This document shows positions 11,397 through 17,112 of a DNA stretch of 40,496 bases, one piece after another. Source of the DNA: an uncultured cyanobacterium (lineage in GTDB: Bacteria > Cyanobacteriota > Cyanobacteriia > PCC-6307 > Cyanobiaceae); contig CAIOCZ010000021.1 of NCBI GenBank assembly GCA_903856805.1, positions 1-40,496 on the forward strand. The letters are read 5' to 3'. The notes beneath the pieces are model-generated. The model worked only from the letters and a program-made list of their open reading frames with translations, had not been told where the DNA came from and did not search any database. The position numbers were made by a program, and so were the translations under genes. Positions within the stretch are counted from its first letter, which is position 1. Each line of letters starts with the position of its first letter.

Positions 11397-13094
11397 GTGC
11401 TCACGGGTCTGCGCCTCGAGAACATTGCCCTGATCGAGCAGCTGGAGCTGACTTTTGAGGTCGGCTTCACCGTGCTGACCGGCGAAACCGGCGCCGGTAA
11501 ATCGATCCTGCTGGATGCCCTCGATGCCCTGTTGGGGGGCGCCCAGGGGGCCCAAGGGGCGCGACTGTTGCGGCGCGGCCGTGAACGGGGGCGGATCGAA
11601 GCCAGTTTTTCCCTCACCCCGCCGGTGCTGGCCTGGTTGGAGCTCCAGCAGTTGGACGCCGAAGAGGAGGGGCTGGTGCTGAGTCGGGATTGGCGCCTGC
11701 AGGAGGGCCGCCCGGTCAGTCGCCATCGCCTCAATGGCGTGGTGATCAGCCGAGCCCAAGTGGTGGAGCTGCGCCCTTTATTGCTGGATCTCACCGTGCA
11801 GGGCCAGACCCAGCACCTAGGGCGTCCGGGCCAGCAGCGCCGTTGGTTGGATCGCTTCGCGGGCTCCGCCCAGCTGCCGCTTTTGGAGGCAGCCTCCCAG
11901 GCCTGGAGGAGCTGGAGGCAGGCCGCCAAGGCCCTGGCCGCCGCCCGCTCCGATCTGGCCCGGGTGGAGCAGGAGCGCCAGCGCCAGGAGCAGTTGCTGG
12001 AGGATCTGGAGGCGGCGGTTCTGGAGGATCCGGAGGAGCGCCAGCACCTGCAGATTGAGCAGGATCGGCTGGCCCATGGCGTCCGGTTGCAACAGGGGGT
12101 CACGGTGCTGCTGGGGCGGTTGCTGGAGGGCCAGGAGGCGGCGCCGGCGGCGTTGGATCACCTGGCGGCCTGTGTCCAGGAACTGGGGCAGATGGCGGCC
12201 CTCGATCCTTCCGTGGCCCCCTTGGCGGAGGCTTGTGGGGGGGCGTTCACCGCGGTGCAGGAGCTGGCCCGGGACCTCGATCGCTATGGCGCCTCGTTGG
12301 AGAGTGATCCCCAGTCCCTGGCGGTCTTCCAGGAGCGCATGGCCCAGCTCAAGGCGCTGGAACGCCGCCATGGGCTGGAGTTAGCCGATTTGATTGCCCT
12401 GCGCGATCGGCTGCGGGAGCAGCTGGCCCCCGGGGGCTTGGAGGCCTCGCTGGCGGCCCTGGAACGGGCTGAAATCGCTGCGCGCCGAGACCGGGAACGG
12501 GTCCATGGGGCCCTGCGCGAGGCCCGCACCGTGGCGGCCCGGCGGTTGGAGGAGCAGTTGATGGAGGCGTTGCGGCCGATGGGCTTGGCCCAGGTGCGCT
12601 TTGCGGTGGAGATTGCGCCGGCGGAGCCCGGTGAGGAGGGGTCGGATGCCGTGCGCTTTTTGTTCTCCGCCAATCCGGGCCAGCCGTTGGCGCCTCTGGT
12701 GGAGGTGGCGTCTGGTGGTGAGATGAGCCGCTTCCTCTTGGCGCTGAAAACCTGCCTGGCCGCCGCCGATCCCCACGTCACCCTGGTATTTGATGAGATC
12801 GACAGTGGTGTGAGCGGCCGCGTCAGTGGGGCGATGGCGGAACTGTTGAAGCGCCTGTCGAGCTGCCGTCAGGTGTTCTGCGTCACCCATCAACCGCTGG
12901 TGGCGGCCGCCGCTGATCACCATTTCCGGGTGGCTAAGGCGGTGGACAACGGCCAGACCCATGCCCAGGTGTCCCACCTGCGGGACACTCAGGCTCGCCA
13001 GGCTGAGCTGGCGGAACTGGCTGGTGGGGACAGCGGAGAAGCCCGTAGCTATGCCGCTAGTTTGCTGGGACAGGAGTTCCCGAGGCTGGCATGA
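11397..13094 (+). CDS. recN: DNA repair protein RecN
   Basis: SMC-like ATPase acting in double-strand break repair. The 565-residue product begins with LRLENIALIEQLEL, the typical RecN first strand, followed by Walker A TGETGAGKSIL (about 27-37). A long helical, coiled-coil-type middle region rich in Glu, Gln, Arg and Ala separates this from the ABC signature VASGGEMSRFLLALK and Walker B VTLVFDEIDSGVSGR, then FCVTHQPLVAAAADHHF (H-loop). Length and architecture are normal for the family. GTG 11397 is chosen for the GGAGG site and the conserved beginning. The stop overlaps the ATG of the next gene by four bases, which implies translational coupling with the membrane protein. Confidence 0.95.
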   Translation: MLTGLRLENIALIEQLELTFEVGFTVLTGETGAGKSILLDALDALLGGAQGAQGARLLRRGRERGRIEASFSLTPPVLAWLELQQLDAEEEGLVLSRDWRLQEGRPVSRHRLNGVVISRAQVVELRPLLLDLTVQGQTQHLGRPGQQRRWLDRFAGSAQLPLLEAASQAWRSWRQAAKALAAARSDLARVEQERQRQEQLLEDLEAAVLEDPEERQHLQIEQDRLAHGVRLQQGVTVLLGRLLEGQEAAPAALDHLAACVQELGQMAALDPSVAPLAEACGGAFTAVQELARDLDRYGASLESDPQSLAVFQERMAQLKALERRHGLELADLIALRDRLREQLAPGGLEASLAALERAEIAARRDRERVHGALREARTVAARRLEEQLMEALRPMGLAQVRFAVEIAPAEPGEEGSDAVRFLFSANPGQPLAPLVEVASGGEMSRFLLALKTCLAAADPHVTLVFDEIDSGVSGRVSGAMAELLKRLSSCRQVFCVTHQPLVAAAADHHFRVAKAVDNGQTHAQVSHLRDTQARQAELAELAGGDSGEARSYAASLLGQEFPRLA

Positions 13095-13816
13095 GCGGCC
13101 GTGCCCAGGTGGATATTCCTGCCCGAATCTGTCGGCCTTACATCCTGGCTTTGCTGCTGGCTGCCCTGATCAATGGGGCGCTTCGAATCCAGATAGCGAT
13201 CCACTATTGGCGCCATGCTTATTACGCTGGTTTCGGCTTTGATCTAGTTCGTAATAGTTTAGCCCTGGTTTTTTCCCTGTTGCTAATCGCTTTTTTGGTT
13301 CGATTGATTTCCCTGGTGCCCCGCTTGTGGTGGACGCGTCAGCCGATCGCCAGTGGGGAGTTGTTTTGGCTGGGCCTGATTTCCACGTTGCAACTCACGC
13401 TGAACCTAGTATCGGTTAATGTTACCATTTATCGACTTAAAATAGCGTCCTATGAATTACTTGCCGAATCGATAGCGTTATATTCTGCTATTAATTTAAT
13501 TTTTTTGTTTTGGTATTGGTATGCTGATTATCCCCTGCGCGGTCGTCAGGCAATTGGTACTGGTCGGGCGGGGGTTCCCCTTGGCATTCTTTTTCCAGAG
13601 GAAGAAAGGGAGAAGTTTTTTATGAATACCGAGACCTGGATTCCCAAGCCAATCGATTACTTTTATTTTACAATTCTCTCCAGCAACTGTTTTGGTTCTC
13701 CCGAGGGGCATTGTGTGATTGGCTCTCGCTTAAAATTGATTCAGATTGTTCATACTGTTTTTATGATTTTTGTGTTCATTATTATTGTTGCCCGCGCCAT
13801 CAACACCCTGGCCTAA
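13091..13816 (+). CDS. AT-rich integral membrane protein with ion-channel-like C-terminus
   Basis: A 241-residue protein with about five membrane segments (roughly 17-33, 50-76, 88-112, 124-146 and 215-240). Between the last two, a soluble loop leads into DYFYFTILSSNCFGSPEGH and then KLIQIVHTVFMIFVFIIIV, ending ARAINTLA. This layout (pore helix, filter-like turn, final helix) recalls the pore module of two-transmembrane potassium channels, but the TVGYG filter is replaced by SSNCFG, so ion conduction is doubtful. The ATG overlaps the recN stop (ATGA). Its GC content, especially 13200-13800, is far below that of recN and uvrA, suggesting a separate origin or relaxed codon use. No function is assigned; the family relation is inferred from pattern only. 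Confidence 0.75.
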   Translation: MSGRAQVDIPARICRPYILALLLAALINGALRIQIAIHYWRHAYYAGFGFDLVRNSLALVFSLLLIAFLVRLISLVPRLWWTRQPIASGELFWLGLISTLQLTLNLVSVNVTIYRLKIASYELLAESIALYSAINLIFLFWYWYADYPLRGRQAIGTGRAGVPLGILFPEEEREKFFMNTETWIPKPIDYFYFTILSSNCFGSPEGHCVIGSRLKLIQIVHTVFMIFVFIIIVARAINTLA

Positions 13817-14127: not shown

Positions 14128-17112
14128 ATGCCCCGCGCCAGCGCCGGGTCTTCCGCTCCGATCCCGGCCTCTTGCAACGGCAAGCTCGACCAAGCCCTCA
14201 CCGGGGGCAGTCTTGAGGATGTGATTCGCGTGCGTGGCGCGCGTCAGCACAACCTGCGCAACGTTGATCTCACGATTCCGCGCAACAAGCTGGTGGTGTT
14301 CACCGGCGTGAGTGGTAGCGGCAAGAGTTCCCTGGCCTTCGACACCATTTTCGCCGAGGGACAGCGGCGCTATGTCGAGAGCCTGTCGGCCTATGCCCGC
14401 CAGTTTCTTGGCCAGGTGGACAAGCCCGATGTGGACGCGATCGAAGGGTTGTCCCCGGCGATTTCGATCGATCAGAAATCCACGAGTCACAACCCCCGCT
14501 CCACGGTCGGCACGGTCACCGAGATCCAGGACTACCTGCGGTTGCTCTATGGCCGCGCCGGGGAGCCCCACTGCCCCCAGTGCGAGCGTTCGATCCGTCC
14601 CCAGACCATCGATGAGATGGTCGATCAGATCCTCACGCTCCCGGAGGGGACCCGCTATCAGCTGCTGGCGCCGGTGGTGCGCGGCAAGAAGGGCACCCAC
14701 GTGAAGTTGTTGTCCGGGTTGGTGGCCGAGGGGTTTGCCCGGGTTCGCATCGACGGCGAGGTGCGGGAACTGGCCGACAACATCGAGCTCGATAAGAACC
14801 ACGCCCACAACATCGAGGTGGTGGTGGATCGGCTGGTGGCCCGCGAGGGCATCCAGGAGCGGCTCAATGATTCGCTGCGCACCGCCCTGAAGCGGGGCGA
14901 GGGCCTGGCCCTGGTGGAGGTGGTGCCCAAGGCCGGCGAGCCCCTGCCGGAGGGGGTGGAGCGGGAACGGCTGTTCTCGGAGAACTTCGCCTGTCCGGTG
15001 CATGGGGCGGTGATGGAGGAGCTGTCGCCGCGCCTGTTTTCGTTTAACAGCCCCTATGGTGCCTGCCCCGATTGCCATGGCATCGGCCATCTGCGGAAGT
15101 TCACCCAGGAGCGGGTGATCCCCGATCCCGGCCTGCCGGTGTATGCCGCCATTGCCCCCTGGAGTGATAAGGATAATTCCTACTACTTCTCCCTCCTTTA
15201 TAGTGTTGGTGAGGCGTTTGGGTTTGAATTAAAAACACCCTGGAACCAGTTGGCCGAGGAGCAGCGTCAGGTATTGCTGCATGGCAGTAAGGAACCAATC
15301 ACGATCCAGGCGGATAGCCGCTACCGCAAGAGCGAGGGTTACACCCGGCCGTTTGAAGGAATTCTCCCCATTCTGGAACGGCAATTGCGCGATGCCAGTG
15401 GCGAATCCATTCGTCAGAAGCTGGAGAAGTTCCTGGAGTTGGTGCCCTGTGCCAGTTGCCATGGCCTGAGGTTGCGGCCCGAGGCCCTAGCGGTGAAGGT
15501 GGGTCCTTACACCATCAATCAGCTCACGGCGGTGAGCGTCGCCGAAACCCTTCAGCGGATCGAGGCCCTGATGGGGGTGGGGGCCAGCGAGGGCCAGGAG
15601 CCCCTGCTCAGCCCACGCCAGATTCAGATCGGCGATCTGGTGCTGCGGGAGATCCGGATGCGGCTGCGGTTCCTGCTGGATGTGGGCCTCGACTACCTCA
15701 GCCTCGATCGCCCCGCCATGACCCTCTCCGGCGGGGAGGCGCAGCGGATCCGATTGGCCACCCAGATCGGCGCCGGCCTGACCGGGGTGCTCTACGTGTT
15801 GGATGAACCGAGCATCGGGCTGCATCAGCGCGACAACGATCGCCTGCTCGCCACCCTGATCAAATTGCGGGATCTGGGCAACACCCTGATTGTGGTGGAG
15901 CACGACGAGGACACAATCAGGGCCGCCGACCATCTGGTGGATATCGGTCCCGGCGCCGGCGTCCATGGGGGCCACATCGTGGCGGAGGGCTCCCTGGCCA
16001 ATCTGCTCGCCGCCGAGGACTCCCTCACCGGCGCGTACCTGAGCGGTCGCCGCTCCATCCCCACTCCGGCGGAGCGTCGCGATGCGGGCAGTCGCCGGCT
16101 CACCTTGGTGAACTGCCACCGCAACAATCTGCAGGGCATTGATCTGGAGATTCCCTTGGGGCGCTTGGTGTGCGTCACCGGCGTGAGTGGCAGTGGCAAG
16201 AGCACGTTGGTGAATGAGCTGCTCCACCCTGCCTTGGAACACAAGCTGGGGATGAAGGTGCCCTTTCCATCCGGATTGGATGAACTGAGGGGCATCAAGG
16301 CGATCGATAAGGTGATTGTGATTGATCAATCGCCGATCGGTCGTACACCCCGCTCCAATCCCGCCACCTACACCGGTGCCTTCGATCCGATTCGCCAGGT
16401 GTTTGCCGCCACCGTGGAGGCCAAGGCGCGGGGCTATCAGGTGGGCCAGTTCAGTTTCAATGTCAAGGGGGGGCGCTGCGAGGCCTGCAGTGGTCAGGGG
16501 GTGAACGTGATCGAGATGAACTTCCTGCCCGATGTGTATGTGCAGTGTGATGTTTGCAAGGGTGCGCGTTATAACCGCGAAACCCTGCAGGTCACCTATC
16601 GCGGCCACACCATTGCCGATGTGCTGGAGATGACGGTGGAGCAGGCCGCCGAGACGTTTTCGGCCATCCCCCAGGCCGCCGATCGGTTGCGCACCCTGGT
16701 GGATGTGGGCCTGGGCTACATCAAGCTCGGCCAGTCGGCTCCCACCCTCTCCGGCGGCGAGGCCCAGCGGGTGAAGTTGGCCACGGAACTATCCAAGCGG
16801 GCCACCGGCAAAACCCTCTACTTGATCGATGAGCCCACCACCGGTCTCAGTTTCTACGACGTGCACAAGCTGATGGAGGTGATGCAGCGGCTGGTGGATA
16901 AGGGCAATTCAATCCTGGTGATTGAGCACAATCTTGATGTGATCCGCTGTGCCGATTGGCTAATTGATCTCGGTCCCGATGGCGGCGATAAGGGTGGTGA
17001 GATCGTGGTGTGCGGCACCCCTGAGGAGGTGGCGGAGCATGCCACCAGCCACACGGGCCGCTATCTCAAGCAGGTGTTGGCCCAGCATCCGCCGGAGCTG
17101 GTGGCGGCCTGA
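14128..17112 (+). CDS. uvrA: Excinuclease ABC subunit UvrA
   Basis: Damage-recognition ATPase of nucleotide excision repair, forming the UvrA2-UvrB complex. The 994-residue product has two ABC modules: Walker A FTGVSGSGKSSLAF (about 57-70) with signature LSGGEAQRIRLA (about 532), and Walker A VTGVSGSGKSTLVNE (about 683) with signature LSGGEAQRVKLA (about 873). Zinc-binding cysteines occur in GACPDCHGIGH and GGRCEACSGQG with VQCDVCKGARYN. VDAIEGLSPAISIDQK and SPIGRTPRSNPATYTG are family hallmarks. ATG 14128 is used; the frame is open upstream to 14050, and the about 25 residues before LEDVIRVRGARQHNL are unconserved, so a later start is possible. A DNA-repair neighbour of recN. Confidence 0.97.
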   Translation: MPRASAGSSAPIPASCNGKLDQALTGGSLEDVIRVRGARQHNLRNVDLTIPRNKLVVFTGVSGSGKSSLAFDTIFAEGQRRYVESLSAYARQFLGQVDKPDVDAIEGLSPAISIDQKSTSHNPRSTVGTVTEIQDYLRLLYGRAGEPHCPQCERSIRPQTIDEMVDQILTLPEGTRYQLLAPVVRGKKGTHVKLLSGLVAEGFARVRIDGEVRELADNIELDKNHAHNIEVVVDRLVAREGIQERLNDSLRTALKRGEGLALVEVVPKAGEPLPEGVERERLFSENFACPVHGAVMEELSPRLFSFNSPYGACPDCHGIGHLRKFTQERVIPDPGLPVYAAIAPWSDKDNSYYFSLLYSVGEAFGFELKTPWNQLAEEQRQVLLHGSKEPITIQADSRYRKSEGYTRPFEGILPILERQLRDASGESIRQKLEKFLELVPCASCHGLRLRPEALAVKVGPYTINQLTAVSVAETLQRIEALMGVGASEGQEPLLSPRQIQIGDLVLREIRMRLRFLLDVGLDYLSLDRPAMTLSGGEAQRIRLATQIGAGLTGVLYVLDEPSIGLHQRDNDRLLATLIKLRDLGNTLIVVEHDEDTIRAADHLVDIGPGAGVHGGHIVAEGSLANLLAAEDSLTGAYLSGRRSIPTPAERRDAGSRRLTLVNCHRNNLQGIDLEIPLGRLVCVTGVSGSGKSTLVNELLHPALEHKLGMKVPFPSGLDELRGIKAIDKVIVIDQSPIGRTPRSNPATYTGAFDPIRQVFAATVEAKARGYQVGQFSFNVKGGRCEACSGQGVNVIEMNFLPDVYVQCDVCKGARYNRETLQVTYRGHTIADVLEMTVEQAAETFSAIPQAADRLRTLVDVGLGYIKLGQSAPTLSGGEAQRVKLATELSKRATGKTLYLIDEPTTGLSFYDVHKLMEVMQRLVDKGNSILVIEHNLDVIRCADWLIDLGPDGGDKGGEIVVCGTPEEVAEHATSHTGRYLKQVLAQHPPELVAA

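Follow-up and report, generated by a model that had tools for sequence, protein, structure and literature searches.

In CNG channels and in NaK, the T-x-G half of the K+-channel selectivity filter is kept and the outer half is changed, and a filter that has lost the Tyr-Gly carbonyl cage should no longer select for K+. CNG channels are described as non-selective for cations in a passage of PMC13088309, and the glutamate-receptor pore (GluR0-type) is described in part of PMC6385376 as inverted, with its pore loop facing the cytoplasm. In cyanobacteria, one passage of a survey of repair genes reports uvr genes clustered with recN in some genomes (PMC5101192), so that a gene immediately behind recN, as analyzed here, can find itself between two repair genes. 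Among the matches listed in literature searches on K+-channel filters, cyanobacterial recN, CNG/NaK, GluR0, and DUF1345, no title or abstract beginning described the family to which this gene belongs.

The gene between recN and uvrA

The window is a 40,496-nucleotide stretch of DNA from an uncultured cyanobacterium of the Cyanobiaceae, and the 241-aa gene under study (ORF 13091-13816, + strand) was confirmed to be present in it. The genes and their junction are as follows:

11433..13094, + strand: recN, the upstream gene (Pfam SMC_N and AAA matches; start approximate)
13091..13816, + strand: channel-like gene, 241 aa plus stop (ORF; relatives found)
13091..13094, + strand: ATGA, the channel start codon overlapping the recN stop (sequence)
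14128..17112, + strand: uvrA, the next gene downstream (Pfam UvrA domains; start approximate)

A sequence-only reading had drawn attention to the ATGA overlap with recN, to a GC content far lower than that of either neighbor, and to SSNCFG at the place of the TVGYG filter, and each of these observations held. The channel ATG lies within the recN stop at 13091-13094, and SSNCFGSPEGH occupies residues 197-207 of the protein. GC at the three codon positions of the channel gene is 0.50/0.40/0.50; its GC3 of 0.50 compares with 0.81 for recN and 0.80 for uvrA and is the lowest among 30 window ORFs (29 from a simple picker, with the channel ORF added by hand), the next lowest being 0.64. Around the gene there are a promoter-like site and two terminator-like ones, no more than expected by chance.

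Relatives behind recN, behind other genes, and in other lineages

Matches at E 0.001 were found in 23 of 60 related genomes (the window's own included), and all 23 belong to the window's own genus. The closest relatives, which we call group A, have in common the motif SSNCFG[SA]PEGH. Relatives 52-54% identical to the window protein stand right behind recN in eight congeners, and one that is 44% identical does so in another; a group A copy directly 3′ of recN was thus present in 9 of the 36 congeners searched, or 10 of 37 when the window genome is included. RecN itself was detected in 38 of the 42 genomes of the genus. Thirty recN loci were examined: 5 had the channel gene behind recN, 24 did not, and 1 ended at the contig edge; the five further recN-linked copies are in other loci, outside this set. 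This survey of recN neighbors extends the pairing beyond the window genome, to 14 distinct genomes with the window's included (10 of the genus plus L069, L070, L074, and L076; 8 of the 12 named recN-linked loci duplicate earlier genomes). In several genomes the channel gene is found between recN and uvrA. Gene turnover behind recN is high in the genus (L033-L061), where uvrA, a dehydrogenase-like gene (judged by eye), or others follow.

The starts of the recN-linked copies overlap recN by 4 nt in 3 of 13 measured copies and lie 1-4 nt past the recN stop in the other 10, distances that depend on start codons (many of them GTG) chosen by the analyst. GC3 of recN-linked copies ranges from 0.41 (L069) to 0.89 (G020), and it is about 0.9 in the copies from Acidimicrobiia described below; low GC is not a general trait of the recN-linked copies. 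Diverged recN-linked copies (window, L004-L011, and L069) have a GC3 of 0.41-0.50 despite neighbors at about 0.8.

Several individual loci deserve mention. The window's genome (G000) encodes two more family members, at C79:4192-4836 (group B, see below) and C26:23458-23937 (distant), and G020 encodes three distant copies besides its recN-linked one. The recN-linked copy at L076:5749-6390 is without the N-terminal helices and is probably decaying, and a cyanobacterial family member in L112 (G101 contig C88:11144-11410) contains an in-frame TAG and is probably a broken copy. Locus L064 is titled Bifidobacterium breve but shares 74% identity in recN and 93% in uvrA with the window, and it is evidently a mislabeled metagenome-assembled genome (MAG).

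A scan of named genomes gave 37 loci, mostly from MAGs titled Cyanobium, Synechococcus, Synechococcaceae, or cyanobacterium. The gene upstream is recN in 12 of them, phoH (PIN/PhoH ATPase) in 5, and an RNA pseudouridine-synthase gene in 2, these counts being made by similarity, with Pfam names for two phoH and both pseudouridine-synthase loci. In at least 12 of the 37, none of the queried neighbor genes lies beside the channel relative. Of the junctions worked out with genes other than recN, three are tight, with a 4-nt overlap (L079), 5 nt (L085), and 14 nt (L077), and one is about 190 nt (L078). In L091, minD, minE, and a luxR-type gene are upstream of the relative, not closely, and in L093 the relative ends at the contig end with uvrA downstream, and this locus may be another piece of one of the 14 recN-linked genomes. 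Genes of ∼420-aa proteins lie 0.7-1.7 kb downstream of a group B member in L097 and L092: the one at L097:1674-2933 (+) matches Neur_chan_memb below the cut-off (E 1e-4) and in this resembles pentameric ligand-gated channels, and the one at L092:2731-3984 (+) is a 79% identical relative of it.

Two MAGs of the Acidimicrobiia encode group-A-like genes (L072:5956-6678 and L075:3984-4709, both with SSNCFGPPEGH) away from recN; in L072 the neighbor is an F420-dependent quinone reductase, and a near-identical protein is found in L075. In the tree both are within group A, the group having support of 96/92 with weak inner branches, and this position suggests gene transfer between phyla, cyanobacteria and actinobacteria, in either direction. 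None of 42 stretches of viral contigs with a pattern encodes a relative, no relative was matched among plasmids and phages, PADLOC gave no match, and a single one of 33 rows matched PHROGs, at E 0.004.

Two alignments were used for profile comparisons. A3 has 33 rows, the window and 32 of the 37 named loci, drawn from group A and its sister group B with no distant row; L076 (N terminus missing), L090 and L093 (contig end), and L082 and L094 (start unclear) were omitted. A2 has 17 rows, three of them distant cyanobacterial. The window protein has no match in Pfam or NCBIfam, and none of the 17 rows of A2, the three distant rows included, matches DUF1345 (Pfam PF07077) or Ion_trans_2 (Pfam PF07885). 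The best NCBIfam value among these rows was E 0.008, with a family differing nearly row by row, and was taken as chance. Against PDB chains, A2 returned nothing up to E 10.

A distant group with the motif ATAFSPT[DG] is reached in congeners by the window protein alone, with E values down to 2.5e-8, and the A2 profile matches it in other cyanobacteria (10 of the 291 genomes in the class, two being from the window's genus) and in 41 of 198 Acidimicrobiia genomes. Compared with a profile of 11 Acidimicrobiia relatives, A3 gave a probability of 99.0 and P 5e-18, and the reversed control P 0.32. All nine of these 11 relatives that were scanned match DUF1345 (E 1.3e-7 to 1.8e-4), one of them passing the cut-off (31.9 vs. 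31.8 bits). Three of the nine also match Ion_trans_2, at E 7e-4, 0.029, and 0.071, all below the cut-off (best 19.8 vs. 22.5 bits), in a region that starts ahead of the filter and runs through the inner helix to its end.

The sequence-only reading had proposed a profile search for distant channel relatives, and the weak Ion_trans_2 matches are in favor of a pore module; direct comparison with canonical channels was not significant. Profiles set against 25 canonical pores (from 30 loci, five without a TVGYG-like string being dropped) gave probabilities of 0.5, 0.6, 0.7, 0.9, and 1.7%, and reversed profiles gave 0.7, 0.4, 0.5, 0.1, and 0.4%. For A3 the reversed control outscored the forward profile, although all four of the forward alignments shown lie at the pore. 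A3 against three DUF1345 proteins gave a probability of 19% and P 0.0012; three DUF1345 proteins, of which one was short and one had an internal stop, gave P 0.46 against the canonical pores. The window protein probably belongs to a divergent branch of a broad, uncharacterized pore-loop-like family that appears to be remotely related to DUF1345 and Ion_trans_2.

Predicted fold, filter-equivalent loop, and orientation

An AlphaFold2 model built from 33 family sequences (pLDDT 89.0, pTM 0.88) begins with four long helices; then come a linker that includes a short helix, the pore helix, a loop, and the last of the five long helices:

13121..13213, + strand: membrane helix 1, residues 11-41 (predicted model)
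13232..13336, + strand: membrane helix 2, residues 48-82 (predicted model)
13352..13438, + strand: membrane helix 3, residues 88-116 (predicted model)
13448..13552, + strand: membrane helix 4, residues 120-154, outer helix of the predicted pore module (predicted model, structure overlay)
13553..13648, + strand: linker leading into the pore helix, residues 155-186, FP conserved at 168-169 (alignment, predicted model)
13649..13690, + strand: predicted pore helix, residues 187-200 (predicted model)
13685..13711, + strand: filter-equivalent loop NCFGSPEGH, residues 199-207 (alignment A3)
13724..13810, + strand: membrane helix 5, residues 212-240, inner helix of the predicted pore module, ending ARAINTL (alignment, model, overlay)

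The C terminus, in which the shape of a K+-channel pore had been seen from the sequence, is predicted to fold as TM-pore helix-TM, and a fold devoid of a pore module did not emerge from this single-chain prediction. In a Foldseek search of the PDB, 44 of the 50 best rows are pore-loop cation channels by title; none reached E 0.001, the best being GIRK2 (E 0.23, probability 0.99). A second structure aligner placed residues ∼112-241 on Kir6.2, Kir2.2, and GIRK2 with an rmsd of 2.3-2.8 Å over 94-106 residues and Z 7.3-8.2, values near 8 being in the range that this aligner calls common by chance for helical proteins; its 50 best rows comprise 44 titled pore-loop channels, 1 untitled, and 5 others, including the top two. 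A library of viral structures returned nothing at E 0.001 and two viral K+-channel-like proteins at probabilities of 0.66 and 0.69. A group B model from 18 rows (pLDDT 76.7) has the same helix order, its fold search was led by unrelated helical bundles, and channels make up 11 of its 50 best Foldseek rows, all at E above 1. Taken with the channel matches of the window-group model, this leaves the predicted pore fold fairly well supported for the window's group and less so for its sister.

The loop at the place of the filter is among the most conserved stretches of the protein: S198, N199, P204, E205, and H207 are invariant in 33/33 rows of A3, and the same is true of FWYW at 140-143 and of R, A, N, and T at 235-239. 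Neither GYG nor GFG is present in any of the 33 rows. In an alignment made by eye and anchored on the Asp that opens the pore helix, the T-[VI]-G-[YF]-G-[DE] of K+ channels matches C-F-G-S-P-E in the window protein, T-L-G-P-P-E in most of group B, A-F-S-P-T-D in the distant group, and T-F-Q-V-S-D in one DUF1345 protein (alignment programs put the distant group one column shorter). In most A3 rows the first half of the filter is [T/C]-[LFM]-G at the spacing of K+ channels, and the outer half is [PSA]-P-E, not Y-G-D. With its outer filter half replaced, such a pore should not be K+-selective, and judging from the loop residues, cation passage is most likely weak or unselective, as in CNG or NaK channels.

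Comparison with the named systems gives likenesses and differences for each. As in Ion_trans_2 channels, the window family has a predicted TM-pore helix-TM arrangement that overlays Kir pores and the [T/C]-x-G first half of the filter; it differs in having no Pfam match, no GYG, three extra N-terminal helices, and positive charges on the pore-loop side. Two canonical Ion_trans_2 members are encoded elsewhere in the window's genome. With CNG and NaK it shares the retained [T/C]-x-G half and the altered outer half, whereas its filter sequence is another one and the 241 residues of the window protein include no cyclic-nucleotide domain. By eye, the DUF1345 protein of L154 has FP plus acidic residues, D[FY]xYF, and then an equally spaced loop, MTFQVSD where the window protein has NCFGSPE; the window protein itself has no PF07077 match. 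A cytoplasmic pore loop, if the charge rule holds, would be a likeness to GluR0-type pores, which differ in that the window protein has no ligand-binding domain, its 241 residues being nearly all predicted membrane helices, pore loop, and short linker.

This last likeness comes from charge distribution. The positive charges of 25/25 canonical channels are on the cytoplasmic flanks, as delimited by fixed distances from the filter. In A3 the short loops on the pore-loop side are more positive than those on the other side in 29 of 33 rows and less so in 1, and once the linker and pre-helix residues are added the pore-loop side is the more positive in 33/33, counts that are not independent because the rows are related. 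The bias is weaker in the distant group (8 more, 3 equal, and 2 fewer of 13, one of the 13 being a fragment). If the charge rule holds, the pore loop would be cytoplasmic, the reverse of K+ channels, in which it enters from outside. A rather unlikely and bold proposal is then an inverted five-helix cation channel, its pore like that of glutamate receptors, with N terminus, pore loop, and linker in the cytoplasm, a filter of the form [T/C]-x-G-[PSA]-P-E followed by a conserved His, and no ligand-binding domain, persisting behind core genes.

Age at recN and competing explanations

Across nine pairs of family members, none including the window's own copy, dN/dS is 0.09-0.42, showing purifying selection on the relatives. 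These low values, together with the relatives behind recN in congeners, identify the channel ORF as a real gene rather than a chance frame. A recN tree of 21 rows (14 recN-linked and 7 of the recN loci without the gene; the L063 and L067 recN sequences are partial) spreads the recN-linked genomes over three positions: eight form one clade (100/99), five form another (100/98), and the window takes the third, its two nearest recN rows having no channel copy behind recN. Tree distances of recN and of the channel protein agree (r 0.72 over 13 genomes, reached by 0/2000 permutations), also within the clade of eight (r 0.59, 14/2000 permutations), and this agreement speaks for common inheritance only. 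The simplest reading is long residence behind recN followed by several losses; a less economical alternative is that the gene arrived at this spot more than once.

The account that we prefer, at a probability of roughly one half, is that the gene encodes a weakly or non-selective pore-loop channel settled behind core genes, recN giving it expression and not function. A pore-loop module of the kind found in K+ channels would be made up of the model's last two helices and the re-entrant segment between them, with presumably four copies around one pore, and cation conduction would be weak or unselective. The gene would be found behind recN because an ancestor settled at the recN 3′ end, where translation by coupling to recN may be possible, and relatives would have settled behind other core genes as hitch-hikers. 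Since relatives stand behind other core genes, recN would supply expression rather than function, and since those genes are quite different ones, the tie to repair would be a matter of place.

A pore-shaped protein that does not conduct, having kept the TM-P-TM arrangement and lost the filter, might instead act as a sensor, scaffold, or regulator of another membrane complex. Such a role would suit the lack of the K+ signature in all 33 A3 rows, filter substitutes that differ between related groups, and the unknown function of DUF1345, to which the distant relatives are closest among named families. We nevertheless regard it as doubtful, the five loop residues invariant in every A3 row being expected of a working pore lining; FWYW at 140-143 is equally strict, so this invariance is not decisive. 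The sequence-only reading had thought of a link between membrane state and DNA damage, and a channel that altered membrane potential or ion content upon DNA damage could be co-expressed with recN as its functional partner. The tight junctions in 13/13 measured copies, the matching tree distances, and the place between recN and uvrA in several genomes would fit such a partnership. The idea was not borne out and we consider it very unlikely: family members elsewhere follow phoH or a pseudouridine-synthase gene, no copy follows recN at 24 of the 30 loci examined or in the window's two nearest recN relatives, the Acidimicrobiia copies are off recN, and the tree agreement reflects common inheritance only.

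An unrelated insertion, the other possibility raised from the sequence, fits better than a repair link, provided that it is an old, selected, and retained one. As a recent AT-rich foreign insertion or a decaying gene, functionless in the window genome, it could account for a GC3 of 0.50 against ∼0.8 around it, and the recN-linked copy of L076 has in fact lost its N-terminal helices. It is at odds with the intact frame, with the presence of relatives at this position in 13 further genomes, with the low dN/dS of family members, and with a GC3 that is also low in nine other recN-linked copies in which about half of the residues differ, and high in others; of the explanations weighed here, it is the one to which we give least credence.

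If the preferred account is correct and the protein conducts, the family would be a natural experiment on a K+-channel-type pore with the outer half of its filter replaced, in which related groups carry different filter substitutes at about the same spacing. If the pore is inverted, it would also bear on the origin of glutamate-receptor pores from K+-channel pores. For the genomes that carry it, the gene would be an accessory membrane gene long kept in tight contact with a core gene, and a warning that a tight gene pair is no safe guide to function.
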